The notes beneath the pieces were generated by a model. That model was given only the letters and a program-made list of their open reading frames with translations, was not told where the DNA came from and did not search any database. A program made the translations under genes and the position numbers. Source: Clostridiales bacterium (GTDB taxonomy: Bacteria; Bacillota; Clostridia; Christensenellales; Aristaeellaceae). Taken from it: a DNA stretch of 64,000 bases. The stretch covers positions 186,001-250,000 of the forward strand of contig SVGN01000001.1 in assembly GCA_015056315.1 (NCBI GenBank). The letters are read 5' to 3'. Positions 21,742-34,425 of the stretch are shown here, one piece after another; position 1 is the first letter of the stretch, and every line of letters starts with the position of its first letter.

Positions 21742-23352
21742 ATGAAAGAGGGGAAAGGGTCTTTCCTCGTTACGCTCTGGTGGCTGATCGGCTGCCTGTG
21801 CCTGGGCATTTTGCTCGTTGTATTGGCACCCAAGGAAGCACGGCCCTCCACTACAGAGAACCGTATGCTGGCGGGAGCTCCTGTTCTGAACAAAGAGAGC
21901 TTCTTCAGCGGAGAATTCTTTTCCGGTGTCGAGGATTATATGAGCGATGGCTTTTTTGAAAGAGAGACCATTATTGATTTTTCCGATGAGCTGCTCGCTT
22001 CTTTCGACCTGCGCACCGAAGAGCAGCGCCTCATTGCCGAAGAAGCTGAGATCGATCGTCTGCTGACCATGGATGCCAGCGGCGGGGAAGTTTCCGAAAC
22101 GGCTGCGGCTGCTGGCGCGGTTACCGACAAGACCATACCCGAACCAACCGCAGAACCTACCGCTGAGCCAACTCCTGAGCCTACTGCCGAGCCGACTCCC
22201 GAACCAACCGCCGAGCCGACTCCCGAACCAACCGCCGAGCCGACTCCTGAGCCCACCGCCGAACCGACTCCTGAGCCCACTGCTGAGCCTACGCCAGAAC
22301 CAACAACCGAGCTCACGCCCGAACCTACCGCAGAACCCACCGCCGAGCCTACCATCGAACCGACCCGGGCTGCAACGCCTGTTCCTACCCCCACAGTAAC
22401 GCCCACACCCTATGCGACCATGACCCCCGCACCCACCAAGGCGCCCAAGGAGATCGTGCCGCTGGAGGAAGGCTCTACCTATGCGCTGTACCTGATCCGG
22501 GATGAAAAGCGCAAGCACAAGAACTATACCTACCCAGCAGAAAACATCATGCATTTCGCCGGTAGCCTGAACTATCTCAAAACGCTGCTGCCGGAGGATG
22601 GCGAGATCCACTATATGCAGGTGCCTGTGGCGGCGGTTGGTACCCGTCTGTGCATCAACCGCTCCCAGTTCATCGGCTGGGAGAGCACAATGGAAGATGC
22701 GCTGCAATCTCAGGTGGAGGATAACATCTTCATTCATAACATACCCGCTATTCTGGAAAGCCACCTGGTGGCCAAGGAGAAGGATCTGTACTTCTTTACC
22801 GACCACCACTGGACGCCCAAGGGCGCATGGTATGCGCTGGAGGCCGTTATGCAGGCAAGAGGCCTGCCCGTTGTGGGCTACGACGAATACCAATACCAGC
22901 GCAAGCTGATGGACGACAACGGCTCCGGCACCGACGACTGGATCGAAGCGATGTACCCGCTGGCCCCTGTCAGCGGTGTTGTGATCACCGAGAAGACGGT
23001 GGAGCACGAAAGCATGCTCATCAATTATCGGGCCAAGGACTACATGGCTTTCCTGGATGGTACCAAAACGCCCTGGCGGCGTTTCGATACCGGCTACGGC
23101 ACCGACCGGAAGGCGCTTGTGATCTGCGACTCCTTCGGCAATGCCTTTGTGCCGTATCTGCTGCCGTATTACGACGAAGTACACATGACCGACCTGCGCA
23201 ACAGCTACTACGACGAGGAAGCGGCGGGCGGCACCTTCAGCGAGCTGGTCAGGTATCACGAGATCGATGATATCTATGTGGTGCTTTCCACCAGCAACGG
23301 CATCAACGCCCCCAACAGCCTGGATGTGTTCCGCAGCACCATTACCAAATAA
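21742..23352 (+). CDS. DHHW-family membrane-anchored protein with Pro-Thr-Glu repeat linker (putative polysaccharide acetylation partner)
   Basis: One N-terminal membrane anchor (about residues 8-28), a short helical part (40-110), a Pro-Thr-Glu/Ala repeat linker (about 133-230, mostly EPTPEPTA units), then a DHHW/AlgX-like SGNH-related domain (about 240-536). The name-giving motif is at 354-357 ([16 protein letters not shown]), and [13 protein letters not shown] is the probable SGNH serine block. These proteins act outside the membrane with MBOAT acyltransferases to acetylate exopolysaccharide or wall polymer. The linker length suggests the domain is held away from the membrane within the cell wall. 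AAGGAGG precedes the ATG. Confidence 0.88.
22138..22431 (+). repeat. Tandem Pro-Thr-Glu coding repeat
   Basis: Nucleotide repeat encoding about 100 residues of EPT(A/P) units within the DHHW protein. Codon-level variation (CCT/CCC/CCA) is high, so it has diverged rather than expanded recently. Prone to in-frame length change. Confidence 0.85.
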
Positions 23353-23368
23353 GAAAGGAGAGAGACCT

Positions 23369-24907
23369 ATGAACGCTCCCGCTGCCGGTGAACGCCGCTT
23401 TGCGCGCATCGCCGTCTGTGTTTCGCTGGTTCTGGCTTTTCTCCTGGTTGCAGCCGTTCTGGCTTATACAGCTTTCCGTCCGGCTCTCCTTGCTGCTCAG
23501 GCACGGGATTCTGCCTTCGGCGGCGACTATGAAACAGCAGTTCTGAAACTGAAGCCCCTGGAGGAAGCCGATCAGCAACGGTACTACGATTGCCTTTTGC
23601 AGGTGGCGCAGATCGCAGATTACCGCTCTGATTGGGCAACTGCCAAAGCCCTTCTGGAAGATACGCTCTCTCAGGGCGGCGATGGCGAAGCCTACACGGC
23701 TTTTATCCCCAAAGCTGAAGAGTTGCTCACCCAGTGTACATATCATCAGGCCATGGCGCTGTATGAGCAGGGGGCTTATACCAAGGCCTCTCAGCTTGCG
23801 GCCTCCTTGAGCGGCTACGAGCCTGCCGAAAAGCTGTATCGGCTTTCCTATCAGGCATATCTCGACAGCCAGCCCACTCCCCAGCCCACGCCGGTACCCA
23901 CTCCGGAGCCTACGCCAGAACCTACGCCAGAACCTACCCCAGAACCTACCCCCGAGCCTACTCCTGAACCAACACCCACCGTTGAGCCTACCCATACGCC
24001 CGCACCGCAGCAGAAAGAACCGGTAATAACTGCTACGTCTGCACCTACCGCGACACCTTTGCCCACTGCTACTCCGGAACCTACGCCAGAACCTACGCCA
24101 GAACCCACGCCAGAACCCACGCCGGAGCCTACACCCGTACCCACTGTATTGCCTGAGGGCCGTGTGGCGGTTGGCTACCATCATGCTGTGTTCCTCAAGG
24201 AGGATGGCACTGTGCTGGCCTATGGCGATAATACCTACGGCCAGACCGATGTTGGGCAGTGGAAGAATATCGTTGCGGTGGCTGCGGGTGCCTACCACAC
24301 GGTGGGCCTAACCGCAGATGGGCGGGTGCTGGCAACGGGAGACAACACCCACCGCCAGACTGATGTTGCCCTTTTCAGCGATGTGAGCGCTGTTGCAGCC
24401 AATGCCTGGAATACCTGCGTGCTTCTGAAGAACGGCCAGGTGATGACCGTCGGTTACAACAGCTATGATTTCCTTATGGAGCTGACGGGAGCCGAAGCTG
24501 TCTATGCAGGCAATTACGGCCTGATCGTGCGCAGCAACGGTACAAATGTTGCCTCTCATCCCGGCATTGCGCTGCCGGATGAGTGCGTCTCCGCTGCTGT
24601 ATCCCGCGGTTATGCCATGGGTATCGATGCCGATGGTCAGGTGCACAGTGTCGGCATCCCTCTGCCTGCCTGGGAGGATGTAGTGCGCATCAGCGCCGGA
24701 GATAATGCCGCCCTTGCCCTTACCAAAGACGGCCTTGTGCTCAGCCATGCTTTCGATATGCATGTGAAGTGCACTTTCGATTTCGGCCAGCCGGTGCTGG
24801 CGCTTTGCGCAGGGCCCAACCAGTATGCCTTTGTGCTGCAGGATGGCTCTCTTGAGATCCGCTGTGCAGACGGCAGCGTTATGAAGCCCGACGAGAAGCT
24901 CTGGTGA
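23369..24907 (+). CDS. Membrane-anchored RCC1-like repeat protein with Pro-Thr-Glu linkers
   Basis: 512 residues. One N-terminal membrane segment (about residues 12-34, [15 protein letters not shown]) is followed by an alpha-helical, TPR-like region (about 40-165). Two Pro-Thr-Glu linkers flank a short spacer (about 168-205 and 232-260). The C-terminal part has RCC1-type blades ([33 protein letters not shown], then [30 protein letters not shown]). Start ATG 23369 follows AAAGGAG; an in-frame upstream ATG (23267) lies inside the DHHW gene. It starts 16 bp after the DHHW gene. Function unknown; the shared linker type and operon suggest the same wall location. Confidence 0.82.
23870..24150 (+). 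repeat. Two Pro-Thr-Glu coding repeat blocks
   Basis: Blocks at about 23870-23985 and 24064-24147 encode PTPEPTPEP units, more uniform than the repeat in the upstream DHHW gene. Confidence 0.85.
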
Positions 24908-24987: not shown

Positions 24988-26178
24988 ATGCAGACTTTGT
25001 TGCAGGATGCCATAGGCCTTCGGGAAGAGCTGATCCGCCATCGGCGGGCGCTCCACGCCCGCCCGGAGACGGGGTTTGAGCTGCCTTATACGGCGGCTTA
25101 CGTACAGAAGGCTCTGGAAGCACTGGGCATACAGCCAAAGAAGGTAGGCAGGGCAGGGATCACAGCAAGCATCGGTACCGGCACACTCAGTGTATTGCTA
25201 AGAGCAGATATGGATGCTCTGCCGGTAAGGGAAGAAAGCGGGCTTCCGTTTGCAGCCTCCAATGGTAACATGCATGCCTGCGGGCATGACCTGCACACCG
25301 CTATGCTGCTGGGAGCCGCAGCGCTGCTGAAACAGCGGGAGAATGAGCTTGGCGGTGGGATCCTGCTGATGTTCCAGCCTGCCGAAGAGCTTCTGGCAGG
25401 CGCAGCGGATATGCTTGAAAACGGCCTTCTTGACGGTACGGAGATCAAAGCCGCACTGATGCTGCATGCAATGAATGCCCGGGAGATGCGACCAGGTACT
25501 GTGGTGATCCCACCTGGCGGGGTAAGTGCACCGGCAGCGGATTTCTTCCAGATCACTATGCGTGGGAAGGGTTCCCATGGGGGAATGCCGCACATGGGTA
25601 TCGACCCCATCAATGCGGGGGCACAGCTGGTGTGCGCCCTGCAAAGCATCAGCACCAGAGAGATGAGCCCCGTTGACACGCATGTGCTTACCATTTCCTC
25701 TTTTCTTGCTGGTGATGCAGCCAACGTAATGCCCGATCAGGCGGTGCTCAAAGGCAGTGTGCGCAGTTACGCACCGGAGACACAGCAGTACCTGAAAACG
25801 CGCATTGGCGAGATGGCAACGCTTGTGGCAAAGACCTTCCGTGGGGCAGCGGAGGTGCAATGGCTGAGCGGTTGCCCCACACTGGTAAACGATCCGGTGC
25901 TGGCAGAGACAGCAGAGAAGCTGCTGCCTGCACTGGTGGGCGAAGAGCGGGTACTGGTATCAGGCAGGCTGAAGGGCAGCACAGCCCGCTCCGTGGGGTC
26001 CGAGGATTTCGCAAACATCACCCACCGGGTGCCTTCGCTGATGCTGGCCATCGCTGCGGGCGGGCTTTCCGACTATCCGCTCCACAATCCGGGCATCGTT
26101 TTCAACGAGGAAGCATTGCCGTACGGCGCTGCGGTATATGCGGGGTTTGCCCTTGGTATGCTGAACAGAGCCACGTAA
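24988..26178 (+). CDS. M20D family amidohydrolase/aminoacylase-type metallopeptidase
   Basis: Cytosolic dinuclear-metal hydrolase of the N-acyl-amino-acid amidohydrolase/IAA-amino-acid hydrolase group. Signatures: RRALHARPETGFELPYTA at the N-terminus, LLRADMDALPVREESGLPFAASNGNMHACGHDLHTAMLLGAA with metal ligands, MFQPAEE, MLHAMN and GSEDFANITHRVPSLM near the C-terminus. The lid domain is at about 180-290 (GKGSHGGMPHMGIDPINAG). 396 residues. The substrate cannot be inferred. Translation may be controlled by the hairpin around its ribosome binding site. A bidirectional terminator follows. Confidence 0.9.
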   Translation: MQTLLQDAIGLREELIRHRRALHARPETGFELPYTAAYVQKALEALGIQPKKVGRAGITASIGTGTLSVLLRADMDALPVREESGLPFAASNGNMHACGHDLHTAMLLGAAALLKQRENELGGGILLMFQPAEELLAGAADMLENGLLDGTEIKAALMLHAMNAREMRPGTVVIPPGGVSAPAADFFQITMRGKGSHGGMPHMGIDPINAGAQLVCALQSISTREMSPVDTHVLTISSFLAGDAANVMPDQAVLKGSVRSYAPETQQYLKTRIGEMATLVAKTFRGAAEVQWLSGCPTLVNDPVLAETAEKLLPALVGEERVLVSGRLKGSTARSVGSEDFANITHRVPSLMLAIAAGGLSDYPLHNPGIVFNEEALPYGAAVYAGFALGMLNRAT

Positions 26179-26185
26179 CAGACAG

Positions 26186-26227
26186 AAAAAAGACCTGCCG
26201 ACAACGGAAGCACGGCAGGTTTTTTTC
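26186..26227. terminator. Bidirectional terminator between convergent genes
   Basis: ACCTGCCG (26193-26200) pairs with CGGCAGGT (26213-26220), with A-run before and T-run after. It serves both the M20 gene (+) and the RyR-like gene (-). Confidence 0.8.
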
Positions 26228-26233
26228 TGTTTA

Positions 26234-28483
26234 TCAGGTGTTGAGCCAGAACAGGCTGAGCACATTGGCAGCCTCGGTGTTCTCGCTGGCCTTCAGGATC
26301 GCGTCTGTCATCTGTACGATGTCCCTGTCGCTCTTCTTGAAATCGATAAAGAGCATGGATGCCAGCCTGCGGGCGGTCTTCTTCTCGCTGTTTTGCGCAT
26401 CCGGCAGCAGGCTGCCGATCTTGTCTGCCAGCGTGTTGGTGCCGGAAGCAAGGGTGCTTTTCAGCTCCTGCATCAGTGGGCGGTTATCTGCGTAGAGGCT
26501 GCGCAGCTTGTTTGCCGCCATGTCGTGCAGCTTCAGCGAGAGCAGATCCAGTTCATCCTTCTTGGCTGTGGGATCCCACGCACTGCCGGGGGCGCTTTGT
26601 TCGCTGGTCACCAGACAGGGGTGCAGGAACAGGTCCAGGCTTCTGTGTGTATTGGTGCCCTTGAAGAAGTACCCCTCCAGCTGTTTATCGGTGGGTTTTG
26701 AGAAACCGTCCAGCATGGCGTAGGCAGCCCAGCGGTAATGCTCCACATCGGTGAGCAGATCCTCCGCCTCGGTTTTGCATGCCGCATTTTTCAGTACATG
26801 GTTTCTGTAATCGATCTGCAATGCAGCAGCCAAAGAGGCGCGGCGGTCGTAGGAGCTGTTCATAAAGGAGGTAAAGCTGCTGCGCATGCGTTCCAGATCC
26901 GGCTTCGGGCCAAGAAGGTCGAATGCGTTGCTGTATGTGCAGTTGATATAGAAGGCCTTGCGGAGCAGCTCATGGCCGAAAAGCACTTCGGTGCTGTATT
27001 GCTGCTTCAGGTTGCCTACCGGCAGCATGGAGCAATGCACGATACCGGTGTCCTCACCGGAGGGCAGGCTGCGGACGCAAACATCATGCAGCAACGGATC
27101 CAGCACATTGTATACAATGGCTACCTTCTGTTTTGCCCGTTCGGGATCCACCAGCTTCTGCCGCTCGATCTGCAGCTTGATCTGCCGGGCCAGCTGGATG
27201 TTCAGCTTGTCATCCTCGTACGCCAGCAGAACATAGTGCACATCCTTCAGCAGTGCATCGTTTGCAACGGCCATGGGATCGCTGAGGGTCTCGAAATGCA
27301 GTGAACCGATGCGGCGAACCAGCTCGGAATCCTCCGCCAGCATGGGCATGGTGCGGTACAGCTTTTGGCGGCTGGCTTCCGCCTCCACATCTGCCACGGT
27401 AACGGAGAAGGAGCAGTTCTCCACCTGCCCGCAGGGAATGCAGTTGCGCAGGAAATGGGTCGCAAGGCGCGTGTTGCCGGCGATCAGCACATTCAGCTTG
27501 CCGTGGCCTGCATCATCTCTGGCTACATAGCTCCACAACGGGTGCTTGTCCAGAATGTGTACAGCAAGGTTCTCCTTGGTGTTCAGCATACAGATGATGC
27601 GGTTCTGGGTATTCTCCGCCAGAGTGATGTACTGCTCCGAAAGCTGATCCACCACCTTTTCGGCGTGGCGGGAGTTGGCAAAGATGAAATAGTGCAGGGC
27701 ACGGTCCTTGCGCGCGCCTGTGACGGAGCCGCTCTTCTCCAGCAGCTGCATCAGCCGGTTCAGGTTGTGCTGCTCGGAGGGGTGGCACAGAATGCAGTTG
27801 ATGTGGGAAGCGTTCATGGGGAAAAACTTGCAGCTCAACGCTTCACGGTACTGCAACAGCTTCTTGAAGGAGGCACCTTCTACCTTTTCTTCCATTTCGG
27901 CATCGGCCTGGCCGTCGGTGGTGGCAAAGCAGATATAGGCCTTTACATGGTTTTCATCCAGGGTTTTCTGAATGCTCTCTGCCAGCAGGAGAGATTCCTG
28001 CGTCATATCCGAAAAGAAGAATACAGGCCCTCTGTGGAACCAGTGCAGCCAAAAGCGCCCAAGCGCGGAGGAGATGGTCTTGATCACCGCAAAGGCACAC
28101 AGCAGCGGGCACAGGGCATGTTGGGCAATGCAGTAGGATGCGTAGATCTGCCCGGATGCACTGGCTGTTTGCAGATTGCCAAGAAACTGACCGTCGATCA
28201 GCTCGATGCCCGTTTCGATGGCCTTATCAAGATCGCCGCCAAGGCCGACCGTCTGTATGCCGATGACCACGCTGTGCACGGTGCTGTCCAGCACAGTCTC
28301 GCCGAAATCCCGGTAGATGGGAATACGGATCACCGTGACCGAAAGGATGCACAATGCGGTGATCACACTCAGGCGGATGGGGGATCTGTGATGGTTCCGG
28401 AAGCGATAGATGGTAAGAATGGCAGCCGCAGCAAGCAGCAGTATCGAGACCGGCATACGGATGAGGAATGGGTTTTGCAGCAT
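26234..28483 (-). CDS. Membrane protein with two Rossmann-like (RCK/TrkA-N type) domains and a RyR-like domain
   Basis: 749 residues. Hydrophobic segments at about 10-26, 36-54 and 117-141 anchor it; an amphipathic, Gly-rich stretch (VVIGIQTVGLGGDLD, 72-86) lies between the second and third. Two Rossmann-like units follow: one from about 152 (GPVFFFSDMTQESLLLAESI) and one from about 329 (KLNVLIAGNTRLATHFL). The layout resembles tandem RCK domains of gated ion channels. About residues 579-629 (VEHYRWAAYAMLDGF...FLHPCLVT) look like the ryanodine-receptor (RyR) repeat, with its conserved W and HP-LV elements. ATG 28483 follows AAGGAGA. It is divergent from the TIR gene. Domain names are from pattern reading only; channel activity is inferred. 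Confidence 0.72.
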   Translation of the reverse strand: MLQNPFLIRMPVSILLLAAAAILTIYRFRNHHRSPIRLSVITALCILSVTVIRIPIYRDFGETVLDSTVHSVVIGIQTVGLGGDLDKAIETGIELIDGQFLGNLQTASASGQIYASYCIAQHALCPLLCAFAVIKTISSALGRFWLHWFHRGPVFFFSDMTQESLLLAESIQKTLDENHVKAYICFATTDGQADAEMEEKVEGASFKKLLQYREALSCKFFPMNASHINCILCHPSEQHNLNRLMQLLEKSGSVTGARKDRALHYFIFANSRHAEKVVDQLSEQYITLAENTQNRIICMLNTKENLAVHILDKHPLWSYVARDDAGHGKLNVLIAGNTRLATHFLRNCIPCGQVENCSFSVTVADVEAEASRQKLYRTMPMLAEDSELVRRIGSLHFETLSDPMAVANDALLKDVHYVLLAYEDDKLNIQLARQIKLQIERQKLVDPERAKQKVAIVYNVLDPLLHDVCVRSLPSGEDTGIVHCSMLPVGNLKQQYSTEVLFGHELLRKAFYINCTYSNAFDLLGPKPDLERMRSSFTSFMNSSYDRRASLAAALQIDYRNHVLKNAACKTEAEDLLTDVEHYRWAAYAMLDGFSKPTDKQLEGYFFKGTNTHRSLDLFLHPCLVTSEQSAPGSAWDPTAKKDELDLLSLKLHDMAANKLRSLYADNRPLMQELKSTLASGTNTLADKIGSLLPDAQNSEKKTARRLASMLFIDFKKSDRDIVQMTDAILKASENTEAANVLSLFWLNT

Positions 28484-28526
28484 AGATATTCTCCTTGTTA
28501 ACAGCATGTACCGGGGCAATGAAGCC

Positions 28527-28555
28527 ATTATAGCACAGGCGGCACCCGCGGGCAA
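28527..28555 (-). promoter_or_regulatory. Promoter of the RyR-like membrane protein gene
   Basis: Minus strand: -35 TTGCCC (28555-28550), 17-bp spacer, -10 TATAAT (28532-28527) with extended TGC. Confidence 0.65.
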
Positions 28556-28593
28556 GAAACACACCTTTCCTGATGACTTTGGCATGCTTCTTA

Positions 28594-28623
28594 TTGACAG
28601 CTTTGGTTTTGGGTTGCTATAAT
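28594..28623 (+). promoter_or_regulatory. Promoter of the TIR/beta-propeller gene
   Basis: -35 TTGACA (28594-28599), 18-bp spacer, -10 TATAAT (28618-28623) with extended TGC. Near-consensus, so constitutive expression is likely unless repressed. The two divergent -35 elements are 38 bp apart. Confidence 0.75.
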
Positions 28624-28668
28624 TCAAATAAGTATAATATGTTAATTTGCTTACAAAGGGGGTCTGTT

Positions 28669-31600
28669 GTGAAAAGCCCGAACAGTACCTATTTGATCGA
28701 AAACCAAAAGCGTTTCGATTACTACGCGTTTATCAGCTATAAGCATCTGGATAAGCGCTGGGCAAAGTGGGTGCAGAAGCAGCTGGAGTACTACCGGCTG
28801 CCAAACCAGCTGTGCAAGGCACACAGCACGCCCAAGCACATCATGCCGGTTTTCCGCGATGAGACCGACCTGGCAGGCGGCAAGAACGTGAAGGATCACC
28901 TGCTGGACAAGATCAACCGCAGTAAATACCTGATCGTGATCTGCTCCCGCAATATGCAGACATCGCCCAAGTATATCGATTATGAGATTGAGTCTTTTTT
29001 GGCTGCGGGCAACCCATCCTCCCGTATCCTGCCGCTGATCGTGGATGGAGAAGCCAACTCCCGGGATCCGGAGAAGGAATGCCTGCCGCCCGCCCTCAAG
29101 GCCATGGGCGAGAATATGCCGCTCGGCATCACCATGAACCACAAAAGGCGCAAGGATACGGTGCTCAAGCTGATCGCCTCCATTCTGGAGCTGGAGCTTT
29201 CCTCCCTTCGCTCTCACGACCAGGAACGGAAGAACCGCCGTATCATTGCTTCGCTGTGCGGCGGTCTTGCAGCCTCTCTGGCTCTTGGCGGCTTCATTGC
29301 CTGGGAGGGCCTGAAGGTGAAGCAGGCCGGTATGCGCGAGCAGCTCACCTATGCTGAGGATACCTTCCGGCAGGGAGACAGGCTCAACGCCGCAAGGCAG
29401 ACCGCAGCGGTGGAAGCTGACTATCTGCCTCTGATGGATCAGGAGATCCTTGAGAACGCCCAGGAGCTGAAACTGCTCTCTGCCATTCATCCCAAATACA
29501 GACCGGTGGTCAGCCTTGCCCCCGTTACGGCAGACAGCCGCCTGCTCTTTACCGCAGACGGCGCGTATGTGATGGTGATCACCGAAAATACGGTGCAGAA
29601 ATTCGATATGCAGGGCCGCAGTGTTATGCGCTATGAGGTGTCCCAGCACGCACACCGGATCGTGGATGTATGCGCAGACGGTATTCATGCGGCGGTGGTC
29701 AGCTTCTATCTGCCCGGGCTGGAGGGCTCTCACCTCTGGTTGTGGAACATGGAGACAGATACCGCTGTATGTGAGTTGGTATCCAGCGCCGCTTACGACC
29801 AGAACGATGCCAAGATGGGCTATCTGGGCGGTGTGGTGGATGCGGCCTTCAGCCCGGACGGTTCCCTGGTCTGCGCCTGGCGGGACGGCGACGGTTACTA
29901 CAACCAAAACGACGAGCTGGCCGCCTGGAATGCCCAGACCGGTGAAAAGCTATTCAGCTTCTCCGGCGAGCTGCTGGGTAAGATGAACCAGCCCTACGAG
30001 GTAGAAGCCTTCGAGTTTATCGGCTCCGATACTCTTCACTGGATGGGCAGCAGCAACCATGTCTTCTATACCCTTGGGGATGAAGCCCCTGTTGCCATCC
30101 CCAAGAACCGTATGCCCAGAAAGGTCAGCGGCGGTGCACAGAAGGAATGGTCGCTGACGCATATGCGCTACACCATGGCATACGATGCAGAAAGCGGTCT
30201 TGTTACCCTGACCGATCTGGCAGACGGGAATAGGCTGGAGATCCCCGGAGCGACGGAATGTATTTATGTGGAAGGCGGCAGCAAGCTCCTGCTCTTTGGA
30301 AACCATGAGGGGGAAAGCTGCTCCCTTTGGCAGGTAGATCTGCCTACCCTGAGTCTTGATAACTGTATCGAAGACTTTGCTGTTGTTTGCCGGGGCAAGA
30401 CCCTTACCTCTGCCGACTACTTGCCCGGCAGCCCGTATCTGTACCTTACGCTGAATAACAGCGAGCTATACCGCCTCACCCTTGCCGATGGCACATGGCT
30501 GCCCATTGGCGGGGCAGCGGCTTATACGCCGATCGCCCACATCGGAACAACGGATGTGCTGGCTGCCTCCCTCAGCGGCAAGACCGGCATTCTGGAGGTG
30601 GAGGGCACGAGCGTACGTCGGTATATCATCGACGAACGGATCGATGAGCTTTCCGAAACGGCCGTGTTTTCTGCGACCCATATGGCAATGGCGCATAACG
30701 GCTCCTATTTCCTCTATCCGCGTGAGCATCCCGGTACGGCTCTGGTAACGGGTCTTTCTGCGGGTAGCGGAGTCTATACCGCAGCCGGGAGCGGTGGCCG
30801 GCTGGTCGTGCAGGGCAGCGGCAACGAGCTGCGTATATGGAACGGTGATGCGCTTTCAGCGAACCTGACCCTCGATAATGCAGTCTGCGGCGTATGGGTC
30901 GGCAGCGATACGGTGCTGGCTCTGACCGAAACGGAGATTCTGCTTTACGATGCAGGCGGGAACCTGTTGCGTTCTGCCGCCCCGGCTGAGGGGCAGCTCT
31001 ACTGCTCCTTCAAGGCCTCCGGGGATGGCAGCCGTATTCTTGTGTTGAGCAAGGAAGATGCGGTATTCGGCAATAGGCCGTACCACCTTACGCTGCTCAA
31101 CGGTTCCGATCTCGGCCCGATTGCCCGGGTAACGGATCGGGTGCATGCAGCTTCCTCCAGTGCCTATGAGATCGCATACGATCTCTCCGACGATGGCAAG
31201 TGGATCGGCGCTGTGGAACGCATCTCCGAAGAGGGCGAGGAGCAGTACCAGCTCTCCACCGGCGTTTTCAGCGGTAAGGATGGTTCTCTGCTGGCCCAGA
31301 GCCAGAGCATCAATAATGCCGATGTGCCGGTGTTCGACCTGATCGGCGTAGCCAACGGCATCGCTTCCGCCTACCGCCAGCAGTATGTTACCTTTGGCGC
31401 AGGCGATACCATGCTGAGCGGTCTGCAATACGGCACCTGGATCTTCGACCTTGCTGCCATGGAGACCCGGAGCTTCCTGTCCGAGGGCACCAACTGCGAT
31501 GCCCTGCCCGTGCTGATGCGCAACGGCCGTTTGCTGTACCCGGCCAGCGGCCTGCATGTGTGGGATACAACTCACGGCAAGCTGGAAGCGACCCTGGCCC

Positions 31601-31842
31601 ATACCGTAGCCGAGACCGATATCAACGCCATGCTGAAGCCCGAGAACCAGAACCGGCTGTATCTTTCCGATGATGAGAAATGGTTGGTCTTCACCGGGGC
31701 GGAGGATACGTGGCTCTACCGTACCGACGATTGGAGCAGACAAACAGTGCTGGCAGCCCAGCCCTGCCGCATCCTGTATTTGGATAGTACCCTGCTGATC
31801 TACAACACGCCCGATGGGCTGTTTCGCTTTGAATTACCGTAG
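28669..31842 (+). CDS. TIR domain - transmembrane - beta-propeller (WD40-like) protein
   Basis: 1057 residues from GTG 28669, with AAAGGGGG at 28655-28662; no ATG fits better. The TIR domain spans about residues 15-130: FDYYAFISYKHLDKRW, the BB-loop region PVFRDETDLAGG, KYLIVICSRNMQTSPKYIDYEIESFL (candidate catalytic Glu E106) and ILPLIVDG. One transmembrane helix lies at about 192-212, with the TIR side probably cytoplasmic. A short helical part and then about 750 residues of WD40/quinoprotein-like repeats follow (e.g. AAFSPDGSLVCAWRDGDG). Bacterial TIR domains are commonly NADases or adaptors in defence. Here an extracytoplasmic propeller could be the sensor. Partnership with the divergent gene is inferred. 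Confidence 0.8.
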   Translation: MKSPNSTYLIENQKRFDYYAFISYKHLDKRWAKWVQKQLEYYRLPNQLCKAHSTPKHIMPVFRDETDLAGGKNVKDHLLDKINRSKYLIVICSRNMQTSPKYIDYEIESFLAAGNPSSRILPLIVDGEANSRDPEKECLPPALKAMGENMPLGITMNHKRRKDTVLKLIASILELELSSLRSHDQERKNRRIIASLCGGLAASLALGGFIAWEGLKVKQAGMREQLTYAEDTFRQGDRLNAARQTAAVEADYLPLMDQEILENAQELKLLSAIHPKYRPVVSLAPVTADSRLLFTADGAYVMVITENTVQKFDMQGRSVMRYEVSQHAHRIVDVCADGIHAAVVSFYLPGLEGSHLWLWNMETDTAVCELVSSAAYDQNDAKMGYLGGVVDAAFSPDGSLVCAWRDGDGYYNQNDELAAWNAQTGEKLFSFSGELLGKMNQPYEVEAFEFIGSDTLHWMGSSNHVFYTLGDEAPVAIPKNRMPRKVSGGAQKEWSLTHMRYTMAYDAESGLVTLTDLADGNRLEIPGATECIYVEGGSKLLLFGNHEGESCSLWQVDLPTLSLDNCIEDFAVVCRGKTLTSADYLPGSPYLYLTLNNSELYRLTLADGTWLPIGGAAAYTPIAHIGTTDVLAASLSGKTGILEVEGTSVRRYIIDERIDELSETAVFSATHMAMAHNGSYFLYPREHPGTALVTGLSAGSGVYTAAGSGGRLVVQGSGNELRIWNGDALSANLTLDNAVCGVWVGSDTVLALTETEILLYDAGGNLLRSAAPAEGQLYCSFKASGDGSRILVLSKEDAVFGNRPYHLTLLNGSDLGPIARVTDRVHAASSSAYEIAYDLSDDGKWIGAVERISEEGEEQYQLSTGVFSGKDGSLLAQSQSINNADVPVFDLIGVANGIASAYRQQYVTFGAGDTMLSGLQYGTWIFDLAAMETRSFLSEGTNCDALPVLMRNGRLLYPASGLHVWDTTHGKLEATLAHTVAETDINAMLKPENQNRLYLSDDEKWLVFTGAEDTWLYRTDDWSRQTVLAAQPCRILYLDSTLLIYNTPDGLFRFELP

Positions 31843-31867
31843 AACCATACCGAAAGGAGAATGACAC

Positions 31868-32494
31868 ATGAAAAAACTGCTTTCTCTCAGCCTTGCGCTG
31901 CTTCTGATGCTGCTGGCGCTCGTACCTTCCGGGGCATTGGCTCAGCAGATCTACACCAGCGAGACCCTCACCACCATCAACGATGTATTCTTCACCTACA
32001 TGCTCGCTCTTTGCCAAGGGGAGCCCGAGATCGATATGGTGGGTACCACCGGTCTCATCCAGTACAGCGACAACAGCTTCACTTACGGATACAACGATGT
32101 GGGCGTGATCCACGGCGGTGCCTACAGCCAGAAGAACACGGTCACGCTGGGTATGGGTACCGGCCTTGAGGAGAACGAGGACCATTGGTACATGTCTCTC
32201 ACCTTCAGCCCGGAGGCTTCCGACCTGACCATTCAGGGCTGCGGCTATGCTTTTATGCTGGCCTGCGGTCAGGTGGGTCTGCAGCTGCCCGAGGATATGG
32301 ATGAGAGCAGCGATCTCGTCTGGGGCATGCTGGATGTGCTCTTCTCTCAGGATGAGATCGCCATCGAGATGAACGGTCTGGTGTTCATCCACAAGGCGCT
32401 GGAGGGCGGCAGCCACCTGCTCGCTGTAGATTCGCTGCCCTACTATAACGGCTTTTACTATAACAGCATCGAAAACTATTATGTGATCGAGTAA
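31868..32494 (+). CDS. Small secreted protein of unknown function
   Basis: Not recognised. 208 residues with a clear signal peptide (MKKLLSLSLALLLMLLALVPSGALA, cut before QQIY). The mature part is acidic, without cysteines in a pattern, and ends FYYNSIENYYVIE. GAAAGGAGA precedes the ATG. It starts 25 bp after the TIR gene and is followed by a terminator, so it is probably the last gene of that transcript. A soluble extracytoplasmic partner is possible but nothing in the sequence proves it. Confidence 0.72.
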   Translation: MKKLLSLSLALLLMLLALVPSGALAQQIYTSETLTTINDVFFTYMLALCQGEPEIDMVGTTGLIQYSDNSFTYGYNDVGVIHGGAYSQKNTVTLGMGTGLEENEDHWYMSLTFSPEASDLTIQGCGYAFMLACGQVGLQLPEDMDESSDLVWGMLDVLFSQDEIAIEMNGLVFIHKALEGGSHLLAVDSLPYYNGFYYNSIENYYVIE

Positions 32495-32506
32495 GCACGC
32501 AGCCCA

Positions 32507-32538
32507 CCCTCCGCCAAACTGTGGCGGAGGGGATTTTT
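32507..32538 (+). terminator. Terminator of the TIR transcript
   Basis: CCCTCCGCCA (32507-32516) pairs with TGGCGGAGGG (32522-32531); a T-run follows. Confidence 0.85.
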
Positions 32539-32574
32539 GTGCCCGAATAACGCGAGTTATTGTTCGATACCGTC

Positions 32575-32602
32575 TTGTTATTCCGGCAGGATGTGCTATA
32601 AT
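32575..32602 (+). promoter_or_regulatory. Promoter of the glycosidase-like gene
   Basis: -35 TTGTTA (32575-32580), 16-bp spacer, -10 TATAAT (32597-32602) with extended TGC. A small stem TTCGGT/ACCGAA (32615-32630) lies in the leader. Confidence 0.65.
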
Positions 32603-32649
32603 GCAGCCAACAGCTTCGGTAAAAACCGAATATATCAGGAGGATGCGCA

Positions 32650-34425
32650 ATGGGTAACTATCGCAATTTCAAACTGGTGGTCTATTTTGTTGCACACGGA
32701 ACCATTACTGAGACCCGGGAAAAGCTGGAGAAGGAGATTGCTTTCTTCAAACGGCATATGCGGCTGGATAAGGTGTATCTGGAGCCCTTCCGCTCCGGCG
32801 ATTTTGCCTCCCACAAGCAGGTGGAGCTCTGCCGTGCTGTGTTCGAAGAAAACGGCATCGAAGTGGCGGGCGGCATCACTACCACCATCGGTACGCCGGA
32901 AGGGGATGCGCCCAAACAGCGCTTGTTCGATACCTTCTGCTATAACGACTCCAAGATGACCGAGCGTCTTAAGGAGGTCTCCTCTTTCCTGGGTGAACAC
33001 TTCTCCGAGTTCATCATCGACGATTTCTTCTTTACCAACTGCACCTGCGAAGCCTGCCGGGCCGGGCGGGACAGCTTCAACGCAGCCCACGGCATCGCCG
33101 ATGGCAGCTGGCAGGAATACCGCTTGGATCTGATGGAGCGGGTGAGCCGGGAATACATCATTGAGCCTGCCCGGGCCAAGAACCCCGATATCCGGATCAC
33201 CATCAAGTACCCCAACTGGGCAGAGAGCTACCAGGAGACCGGCTACAACCCTGCCGCCCAGCGCAAGCTGTTCGATAACGTGTATACCGGCACCGAGACC
33301 CGTGATTATGTGACCACTGACCAGCACCTGCCCCGTTACCTGAGTTACAGCCTGATGACCTATTTCGAAAACATGTGGCCCGGCCACAACGGCGGCGGGT
33401 GGTTCGACCCCTACGATCTGCATGTGATGGAGCAGTATCTGGAGCAGGCTTACCTTACCGCCTTCTCCAAGCCCAAAGAGCTGATGATGTTCTGTTTCCA
33501 GTCGCTGGTGGATACCATGCGGGTGCCCGCGCTCGGCTTCCAGCTGGATAAGCTGGATGAGACGCTGGATCACGCAGGTGACCCCATCGGTATTTCCTGC
33601 TATCTGCCCGATAACAGCCAGGGCGAGGATAACATTCAGGATTTCCTCGGTATGGTAGGCTTCCCGATCGTGTGTACGCCGTACTTCCCGGAGAATGCAC
33701 CCTCCATTTTGCTCACCCGTGCAGCTGCCTGTGATAAGGATATCGTATCGAAGCTGGAAGCCTATGTTGCTGGCGGCGGCAAAGCAATCGTGACCAACGG
33801 CTTTGTAGAAGCAACGGCAGATCGGGGCATCTACCGCATCACCTCTGTGCGTATGCGCGGCCGCCGCATCAGCGGGCGGGATTACCGTATCGAGACCACG
33901 CCCCGCAACGGTCGTACCGCGCTCACCTTCCCCAAGGGGCGGGAGGAGATCACGGTGCCGGTTGCCGAGTTCCGCAACAACGCCACTTGGGCGCTGGTCA
34001 AAGTTGGCAGTGGGCAGGAAAGCTACGGCATTCTGCTGAAGGATACCTACGGCAAGGGGCAGATGTACACCCTTACCGTACCCGAAAGCTTCCCGGATGT
34101 GTACAAGCTCCCCTCCGAGGTGCTCACCCGCCTGCATGCAGAATTCCCGGTGGGCGGTGTGTATCTGGAGGCAGAGGGACAGATCAGCCTGTTTGTTTAC
34201 GATAACGATACCTTCATCGTGTACCCTTATGTGGAATGGGGCGCACAGCCTGCATACGTTAAAGTGCATGTAACGGGCAAGGCCTCCGCGCTGCTCCTGC
34301 CCACCCAGAAGAACGAAAAGGGTGGGGCAAGGCGCATCCTGCCGCTGTATGCCAATGACGAAAAGACCGTCTTTGAGCTTTATACCATGCCCGGCCAGTA
34401 CGTGATCTACAAGATCGAACGATAA
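32650..34425 (+). CDS. Putative TIM-barrel glycoside-hydrolase-like protein, family not identified
   Basis: 591 residues without signal peptide. The N-terminal part reads like a (beta/alpha)8 barrel: KLVVYFVAHG, KVYLEPFRS, VAGGITTTIG and FIIDDFFFTNCTCEACR, where D124-D125 at a strand end are followed by a Cys cluster (C131, C133, C136). ITIKYPNW and YTGTETRD also match barrel strands. A middle part (about 365-400, LEAYVAGGGKAIVTNGFVE) resembles the flavodoxin-like domain seen after barrels in some glycosidases. The C-terminus (about 480-591) looks like a beta-sandwich. AGGAGG precedes the ATG. No glycosidase family can be named; the two Asp are candidate catalytic residues by inference only. 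Confidence 0.7.
   Translation: MGNYRNFKLVVYFVAHGTITETREKLEKEIAFFKRHMRLDKVYLEPFRSGDFASHKQVELCRAVFEENGIEVAGGITTTIGTPEGDAPKQRLFDTFCYNDSKMTERLKEVSSFLGEHFSEFIIDDFFFTNCTCEACRAGRDSFNAAHGIADGSWQEYRLDLMERVSREYIIEPARAKNPDIRITIKYPNWAESYQETGYNPAAQRKLFDNVYTGTETRDYVTTDQHLPRYLSYSLMTYFENMWPGHNGGGWFDPYDLHVMEQYLEQAYLTAFSKPKELMMFCFQSLVDTMRVPALGFQLDKLDETLDHAGDPIGISCYLPDNSQGEDNIQDFLGMVGFPIVCTPYFPENAPSILLTRAAACDKDIVSKLEAYVAGGGKAIVTNGFVEATADRGIYRITSVRMRGRRISGRDYRIETTPRNGRTALTFPKGREEITVPVAEFRNNATWALVKVGSGQESYGILLKDTYGKGQMYTLTVPESFPDVYKLPSEVLTRLHAEFPVGGVYLEAEGQISLFVYDNDTFIVYPYVEWGAQPAYVKVHVTGKASALLLPTQKNEKGGARRILPLYANDEKTVFELYTMPGQYVIYKIER

Follow-up and report, generated by a model that had tools for sequence, protein, structure and literature searches.

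We describe a divergent gene pair in a 64,000-nt stretch of contig SVGN01000001.1 (GCA_015056315.1, positions 186,001-250,000), which belongs to a draft genome of 3.09 Mb that is 80% complete. This whole stretch is called the window, and its positions serve as coordinates. The gene P0001 encodes a TIR protein with a membrane helix; P0002, on the opposite strand and separated by a 185-bp gap, encodes a membrane protein with a tandem RCK region and a C-terminal region whose family is homologous to the repeats of ryanodine receptors (RyR). We suggest that the two probably constitute a TIR signalling module with a channel-like, messenger-responsive membrane effector. The proposal is built on the fold of P0002, on the RyR homology of its family and on the recurrent presence of a TIR gene beside P0002-type genes in other genomes of the order.

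Domain architecture of the two proteins

The structure model of P0002 (mean predicted local distance difference test, pLDDT, 85.7; predicted template modelling score, pTM, 0.83) shows three helices in the membrane, a pair of Rossmann units and a C-terminal part made of helices, and the fold matches listed include TrkA, GsuK and Slo1. A sequence-only reading of the window had claimed three membrane segments and two Rossmann-like units with an RCK character. The model contains both, and the RCK assignment holds by fold, in the model as well as in the fold searches. As in TrkA and the RCK-gated K+ channels (GsuK, MthK, Slo1/BK, DMI1/CASTOR), a tandem RCK ring is predicted to follow a unit of transmembrane (TM) helix, pore helix and TM helix. 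P0002 differs from these proteins by an extra N-terminal helix, the C-terminal RyR domain and the lack of the K+ filter motif: its QTVGLGGDLD aligns opposite the TVGYGDL pores of sister channels described below, and the filter is not conserved. Thus, P0002 has an RCK channel layout without a K+ filter. Compared with proteins that combine a 2TM K+ channel with an RyR domain, the family profile A2 aligns over P0002 residues 59-721 (probability 99.95, E = 1.4e-37). With the single sequence of P0002 we found no match in Pfam, NCBIfam or the PDB, no ThsA-type match in PADLOC and no relative in a scan of genome contigs. We reject two simpler assignments. A plain TrkA-type soluble regulator would not have the three membrane helices and the pore-helix-like segment, and a clean K+ channel is contradicted by the missing filter and a failed profile comparison of the membrane parts.

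The RyR domain is recognised at the level of the family. A2 matches solved ryanodine-receptor repeats with an E value of 1.7e-15. When compared by hhalign with RyR domains that pass the Pfam cutoff, the window clade reaches a probability of 97.5 and P0002 with L024 alone 90.3, versus 0.2 for a decoy TIR. Among six P0002-type relatives L027 and L028 pass the cutoff of PF02026, L025 and L026 fall short of it and L024 and L029 give no match. The phage RyR-domain enzyme RyDEP uses H75, W78, H100 and D117 for 2'/3' cyclic ADP-ribose (cADPR), according to the accessible parts of PMC13232231, from which RyDEP is described throughout. In the A2 columns corresponding to the first three residues, 34 of the 35 rows carry His, 34 carry Trp and 31 carry His, respectively, and P0002 contributes H582, W585 and H621. 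The RyR-like repeat of the earlier reading is supported by the family profile and not by P0002 alone.

P0001 passes the Pfam cutoffs not only for TIR_2 but also for ThsB_TIR and, narrowly, for TIR. With a TIR profile match and a candidate catalytic glutamate both present, P0001 may well be an NADase. Five Lys or Arg residues lie in the 15 residues preceding its membrane helix and three in the 15 following it, a balance which weakly favours a TIR domain inside the cell. For the long C-terminal region, the profile of the P0001 family alignment A3 retrieves WD40 propellers from the PDB (best 2ymu, 2.5e-24); the single sequence reaches E = 0.079 at best against a WD40 structure. The model of P0001 (mean pLDDT 45.2) is poor beyond the TIR domain and the helix, with values mostly of 25-50 in the beta region, for which mostly beta structure is predicted at low confidence. 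Family profile and secondary structure make a propeller likely. Of the TIR domain, membrane helix and propeller that had been proposed for P0001, the first two are thus found in the protein itself, and the third is reached by way of its family and the predicted secondary structure.

Table 1. Features of the P0001/P0002 locus in window coordinates and related genes in other loci (locus:positions)
Feature	Position	Strand	Basis
P0001, TIR / single TM / long beta-rich protein, 1057 aa, GTG start	28669..31842	+	open reading frame, profiles, model
TIR domain, P0001 residues 21-131	28729..29061	+	Pfam TIR_2, E = 6.2e-12
Candidate catalytic Glu, P0001 E106	28984-28986	+	invariant across the 15 rows of A3
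Single TM helix, P0001 residues 192-210	29242..29298	+	hydrophobicity
Beta-rich region, probably a WD40-like propeller and probably outside the membrane, P0001 residues 290-1057	29536..31839	+	family profile, secondary structure
P0002, 3TM - tandem RCK - RyR membrane protein, 749 aa, ATG start	26234..28483	-	open reading frame, profiles, model
Membrane part, P0002 helices 5-29, 38-58, 108-149	28037..28471	-	model, hydrophobicity
Pore-loop-like helix and loop between helices 2 and 3, P0002 residues 64-86 (..HSVVIGIQTVGLGGDLD)	28226..28294	-	model, alignment
Tandem RCK (TrkA-like Rossmann) gating-ring region, P0002 residues 151-505	26969..28033	-	model, fold search
RyR (R12-like) region with inserts, P0002 residues 570-740	26264..26776	-	family profile, alignment
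Candidate ligand residues, P0002 H582 to W585	26729-26740	-	A2 columns
Candidate ligand residue, P0002 H621	26621-26623	-	A2 columns
P0001 promoter, sigma-70-type, TTGACA-18-TATAAT, 12/12, TG before -10	28594..28623	+	promoter scan
P0002 promoter, sigma-70-type, TTGCCC-17-TATAAT, 10/12, TG before -10	28527..28555	-	promoter scan
208-aa protein, signal-peptide-like start, 25 bp 3' of P0001, same cassette	31868..32494	+	start by eye
Terminator-like hairpin 3' of the 208-aa gene	32507..32531	+	hairpin scan
Hairpin with A and T runs in the gap where the M20-like gene and P0002 converge	26193..26220		by eye; absent from scan list
Accessory cassette (P0002, P0001, 208-aa gene), 6471 bp	26179..32649		between M20-like gene and 591-aa gene
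M20-like gene flanking the cassette	24988-26178		named by eye
Gene of 591-aa protein flanking the cassette	32650-34425		
2TM K+ channels (TVGYGD) with RCK and C-terminal RyR, beside TIR and P0002-type genes	L032:4172-5911, L034:11927-13468, L039:13447-14988, L098:2346-3932, L099:2980-4728		
Small standalone RyR genes, 92-103 aa, in or beside TIR loci	L025:9571-9882, L026:8671-8949, L158:4252-4563, L159:2134-2430, L174:7214-7504		

Linkage of P0002-type genes to TIR genes

We surveyed 396 genomes of the order, of which 85 have a match to the family profile A1 and 169 a match to TIR_2. As the family clusters in this order, a phylum-wide sample of 398 genomes was too thin, with A1 matches in two, one of which is the genome of the window. 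Neither a K+ channel-RyR protein nor a P0002-type one had a match in a plasmid collection. The fetched order loci contain 104 RyR-type proteins. Of the 32 P0002-type genes, 19 have a TIR gene within 600 bp (18 of 31 without the window), compared with 3 of 57 other genes and none of the 8 longer ones; for 19/32 versus 3/57 Fisher's test gives p = 2.6e-8, the 32-member set having been picked from the tree after the adjacency was known. Left out of this test are the five K+ channel genes of Table 1 and also, because their loci were found through TIR, the P0002-type members in L032 and L034. When the proteins are instead split by profile score alone, leaving out four rows of L032 and L034 for the same reason, a hand count finds a TIR gene within 600 bp for 16 of 36 with a score of at least 99 (window included) and for 7 of 64 with a lower score. 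The adjacent pairs are scattered over deep branches of the tree. Twenty pairs lie within 2 kb; five are divergent (window, L083, L088, L098 and, with a gene between, L027) and 15 are arranged otherwise.

These counts bear on the possibility that P0001 and P0002 are two unrelated accessory genes which happen to share a divergent promoter region. The nearest relative of P0002, in L024, has no TIR gene nearby and none of the other genus genomes shows the pairing, as would be expected of chance neighbours. However, the sequence lying more than 2 kb from the focal genes holds only 6 TIR genes in 749 kb, the adjacency differs strongly between P0002-type and other genes, and the divergent layout recurs in L083 and L088. 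We reject a chance arrangement on the adjacency counts and give it hardly any credence. Among 17 genomes of the same genus, P0001 is found in one and P0002-type proteins in two, of which G011 lacks a TIR gene in the surrounding 20 kb. Co-occurrence of the two genes in related genomes, whose absence was one of the refuting conditions set by the earlier reading, thus holds across the order and fails within the genus.

Outside the order, at the level of the class, 14 of 216 genomes match PF02026. From these we obtained 17 neighbourhoods (L158-L174), some of them cut by contig ends, and four contain a TIR gene. In L158 and L159, genes for a membrane RyR protein, a small RyR protein and a TIR protein stand in an operon-like arrangement; in L174 a TIR-TM protein and a 96-aa RyR protein are encoded divergently; and in L172 roughly 1 kb separates the TIR gene from a small RyR gene. 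The other 13 neighbourhoods have no TIR gene, including L167-L169, which encode full-length matches to the P0002 profile.

The TIR partners themselves are diverse. A TIR domain with one TM helix and a long C-terminal region is found in the window and in L083, L088, L087, L102, L103 and L038. In L025, TIR is joined to an FtsK/SpoIIIE ATPase, in L080 to an AAA_16-type ATPase (TIR_2 and NACHT are below their cutoffs there), in L026 to MORN-like repeats and in L027 to leucine-rich repeats, the repeats being named by eye. The sensor side varies while the output side stays similar. In L092 (6904-8010), L093 (2977-4053) and L076 (10269-11402) a second TIR-like gene, recognised by eye and coding for 358-377 aa, precedes a short TIR gene and a P0002-type gene, which recalls Thoeris loci with two ThsB genes.

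Five sister loci encode complete 2TM K+ channels with RCK and a C-terminal RyR domain (Table 1). All five match Ion_trans_2 (1.8e-13 to 3.8e-15) and have the TVGYGD filter; the RyR cutoff is reached by four, in the case of L039 exactly, and narrowly missed by L098. These channels probably offer the cleanest tests in the family and bring an electrical readout within reach. The exact H-W-H-D spacing of RyDEP is kept in 14 of the 104 RyR-type proteins, including all five of these channels and not P0002. RyR-type receptors may also serve systems without TIR. Longer RyR relatives in L090 (10418-14757) and L130 (723-3041) have no TIR and stand beside VWA-, PP2C- and kinase-like genes (named by eye). 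Separately, a P0002-type gene in L089 (9564-10325) without a TIR neighbour is two genes away from an NAD synthetase-like gene, also named by eye.

A putative messenger-gated membrane effector

In Thoeris types I, II and IV, TIR-made messengers derived from ADP-ribose (ADPR) activate receptors encoded in the same operon (PMC12847820, also PMC11204291; types after PMC12847820, PMC12948488 and PMC11204291, each as far as accessible). RyR domains bind TIR-made cADPR isomers, and those of the RyDEP type degrade or sequester 2'/3'cADPR (PMC13232231). Because Thoeris messengers activate co-encoded receptors and phage RyR domains bind 2'/3'cADPR, a nucleotide-gated membrane effector, as had been supposed from the sequence, is the best explanation of P0002.

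We suggest that signalling could proceed in the following steps. P0001 would be anchored in the membrane with the TIR domain in the cytosol and the beta-propeller probably outside. Upon a trigger, possibly perceived by the propeller, the TIR domain would convert NAD+ into an ADPR-derived messenger, most likely a cADPR isomer. Binding of the messenger by the RyR domain of P0002 could then move the attached RCK gating ring, and the pore of a P0002 tetramer, formed by helix 2, the pore-loop helix and helix 3, would open or otherwise change. Loss of the membrane potential or ion balance might finally stop growth. An antiviral role of the pair is likewise putative.

Several findings weigh against this proposal. 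The P0002 sequence by itself gives no RyR assignment (no PF02026 match, E = 13 with a local RyR hidden Markov model). No RyR chain is among the 50 matches listed in either fold search of P0002, all rows being RCK proteins, and lists of this kind neither support nor exclude the RyR call. The equivalent of D117 is uncertain, as D637 is at +16 from H621 and not at +17. The alignment with the sister channels shows no TVGYGD-type selectivity filter in P0002, which we therefore do not file as a K+ channel, and the membrane parts alone of the P0002 family and of K+ channels give no profile match (probability 0.4%). The ThsB matches of P0001 in PADLOC are weak (best 2.8e-5). Thirteen of the 32 P0002-type proteins, including that of L024, have no TIR gene within 600 bp; six of ten TIR-TM loci (L030-L039, of 14 other TIR-derived places) have no RyR neighbours; and there is no sign of a defence island among the six neighbouring genes checked with Pfam.

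The missing filter would also fit a non-conducting regulatory subunit. P0002 could sense the messenger and gate another channel, or perturb the membrane on clustering, as is proposed for the TM-macro protein ThsA. In that proposal, ThsA forms oligomers that disturb the membrane and needs no classical channel (PMC11204291, as far as accessible). In L032, L034, L039, L098 and L099 a P0002-type gene indeed occurs near a complete 2TM K+ channel-RCK-RyR gene. However, a search with the P0002 profile, which would not find channels lacking RyR, detected no K+ channel-RyR gene next to the pair in the window, nor next to the remaining TIR-adjacent pairs, and the model of P0002 places a pore-helix-like segment between its second and third helices. 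We consider a regulatory subunit unlikely, if worth keeping in mind.

A further alternative is that P0002 acts as a brake: the TIR protein would kill by NAD+ depletion or signal elsewhere, and P0002 would bind or hydrolyse the cADPR messenger as RyDEP does and so limit self-damage. The known activity of RyDEP-type domains, the conserved H-W-H-D spacing in some of the proteins and the standalone RyR genes within the TIR loci L025, L026, L158 and L159 are in line with this. For a sponge, however, the membrane part and the RCK ring of P0002 and its kin would be superfluous; a real K+ channel carries the same kind of RyR domain in sister loci; and P0002 lacks the exact spacing. For such a role the small standalone RyR genes are the stronger candidates, and their products are candidate messenger sponges or hydrolases of the host, that is, an off switch. 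A brake function of P0002 itself seems very doubtful to us.

Returning to the messenger-gated effector, the pair would be a variant among TIR-messenger-effector systems. It resembles Thoeris, especially type II (TIR and TM-macro ThsA), in that a TIR gene with the candidate catalytic glutamate adjoins the gene of a presumed receptor and that a membrane protein is thought to respond to an ADPR-derived messenger. In contrast to Thoeris, the putative receptor consists of RyR and RCK and is channel-like rather than built on a macro or SLOG domain, and the TIR protein of the window is anchored in the membrane and has a large domain that is probably outside. We do not assign the pair to Thoeris type I, II or IV, as P0002 has no SIR2-SLOG, TM-macro or caspase-like ThsA match and an RCK fold. 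P0002 is comparable with RyDEP through its RyR (R12-like) region, recognised at the family level, through the candidate ligand residues H..W and H and through the putative link to TIR-made cADPR isomers; yet RyDEP is a small soluble viral antagonist, and P0002 is a host membrane protein which ends in the RyR region and is encoded beside a TIR gene. Animal ryanodine receptors, in whose modulation cADPR is implicated (PMC13232231), have homologous repeats in a cation-channel-like context, but we see no further domain in common with P0002. The combination of RyR repeat and channel looks independent of the animal receptors.

More broadly, and tentatively, since we hold it to be nearly as probable as its opposite, there could be a class of bacterial TIR systems in which diverse TIR-fused sensors make a cADPR isomer and RyR on the RCK ring of a 3TM subunit, which in some cases has a true K+ channel as its partner, opens the membrane. 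If true, this would be a bacterial counterpart to the disputed cADPR-ryanodine receptor axis of animals. Our literature search found no report of a TIR-RyR effector pair in the accessible parts of the sources, and PMC8195603 names ryanodine receptors nowhere but among its references; newer Thoeris types such as type VI (Yirmiya 2025, doi 10.64898/2025.12.03.692087, cited in PMC13232231) are outside the comparison and we therefore do not claim priority.

The locus and its surroundings

The back-to-back layout of the two reading frames is as it had been read from the sequence. By eye, both likely starts lie inside longer listed open reading frames, GTG 28669 of P0001 being preceded by AAAGGGGG and ATG 28483 of P0002 by AAGGAGA. 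The strong and closely spaced promoters which had also been claimed are present as sigma-70-type sites of high quality; the scan of 26000-32700 gave 5 sites, compared with 3.5 (standard deviation 2.0) in shuffled sequence, a number not above chance. It is the position and quality of the two promoters that carry weight, not the number of sites. The hairpin at 26193-26220 is likely a two-way terminator. The 208-aa protein has no significant family in Pfam or NCBIfam.

The pair is located in an accessory cassette. In four genomes of the same genus (G001, G006, G009, G011) the orthologues of the flanking M20-like and 591-aa genes are 118-159 bp apart. Gain of the cassette in the window lineage is the simplest reading, and repeated loss the alternative. 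Six neighbouring genes were compared with Pfam: four match the families RCC1, DHHW, GH31 and alpha-L-fucosidase, and two have nothing over the cutoff.

Such surroundings would suit a physiological pair that serves the envelope, osmotic balance or K+ homeostasis rather than phage defence, the outer propeller sensing the envelope and the channel-like protein adjusting ions. The fold of P0002 matches TrkA, GsuK and Slo1, all of which handle K+, the probable sensor is outside the membrane, and four of the six neighbours belong to non-defence families. On the other hand, the patchy, cassette-like presence within the genus and the varied TIR partners resemble conflict genes, and the one-locus TIR/receptor pairs described in the accessible parts of PMC12847820 are defence systems. 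We regard a purely physiological role as quite unlikely.

The 591-aa protein shows 78-84% identity across the four genus genomes and has no Pfam match at E = 1. Directly upstream of the M20-like gene, at 23267-24907, another propeller-like protein is encoded. It is a surface-type protein with, by eye, a hydrophobic N-terminal helix and a Pro-Thr spacer, and it has RCC1 repeats (RCC1_2, 8.4e-32).

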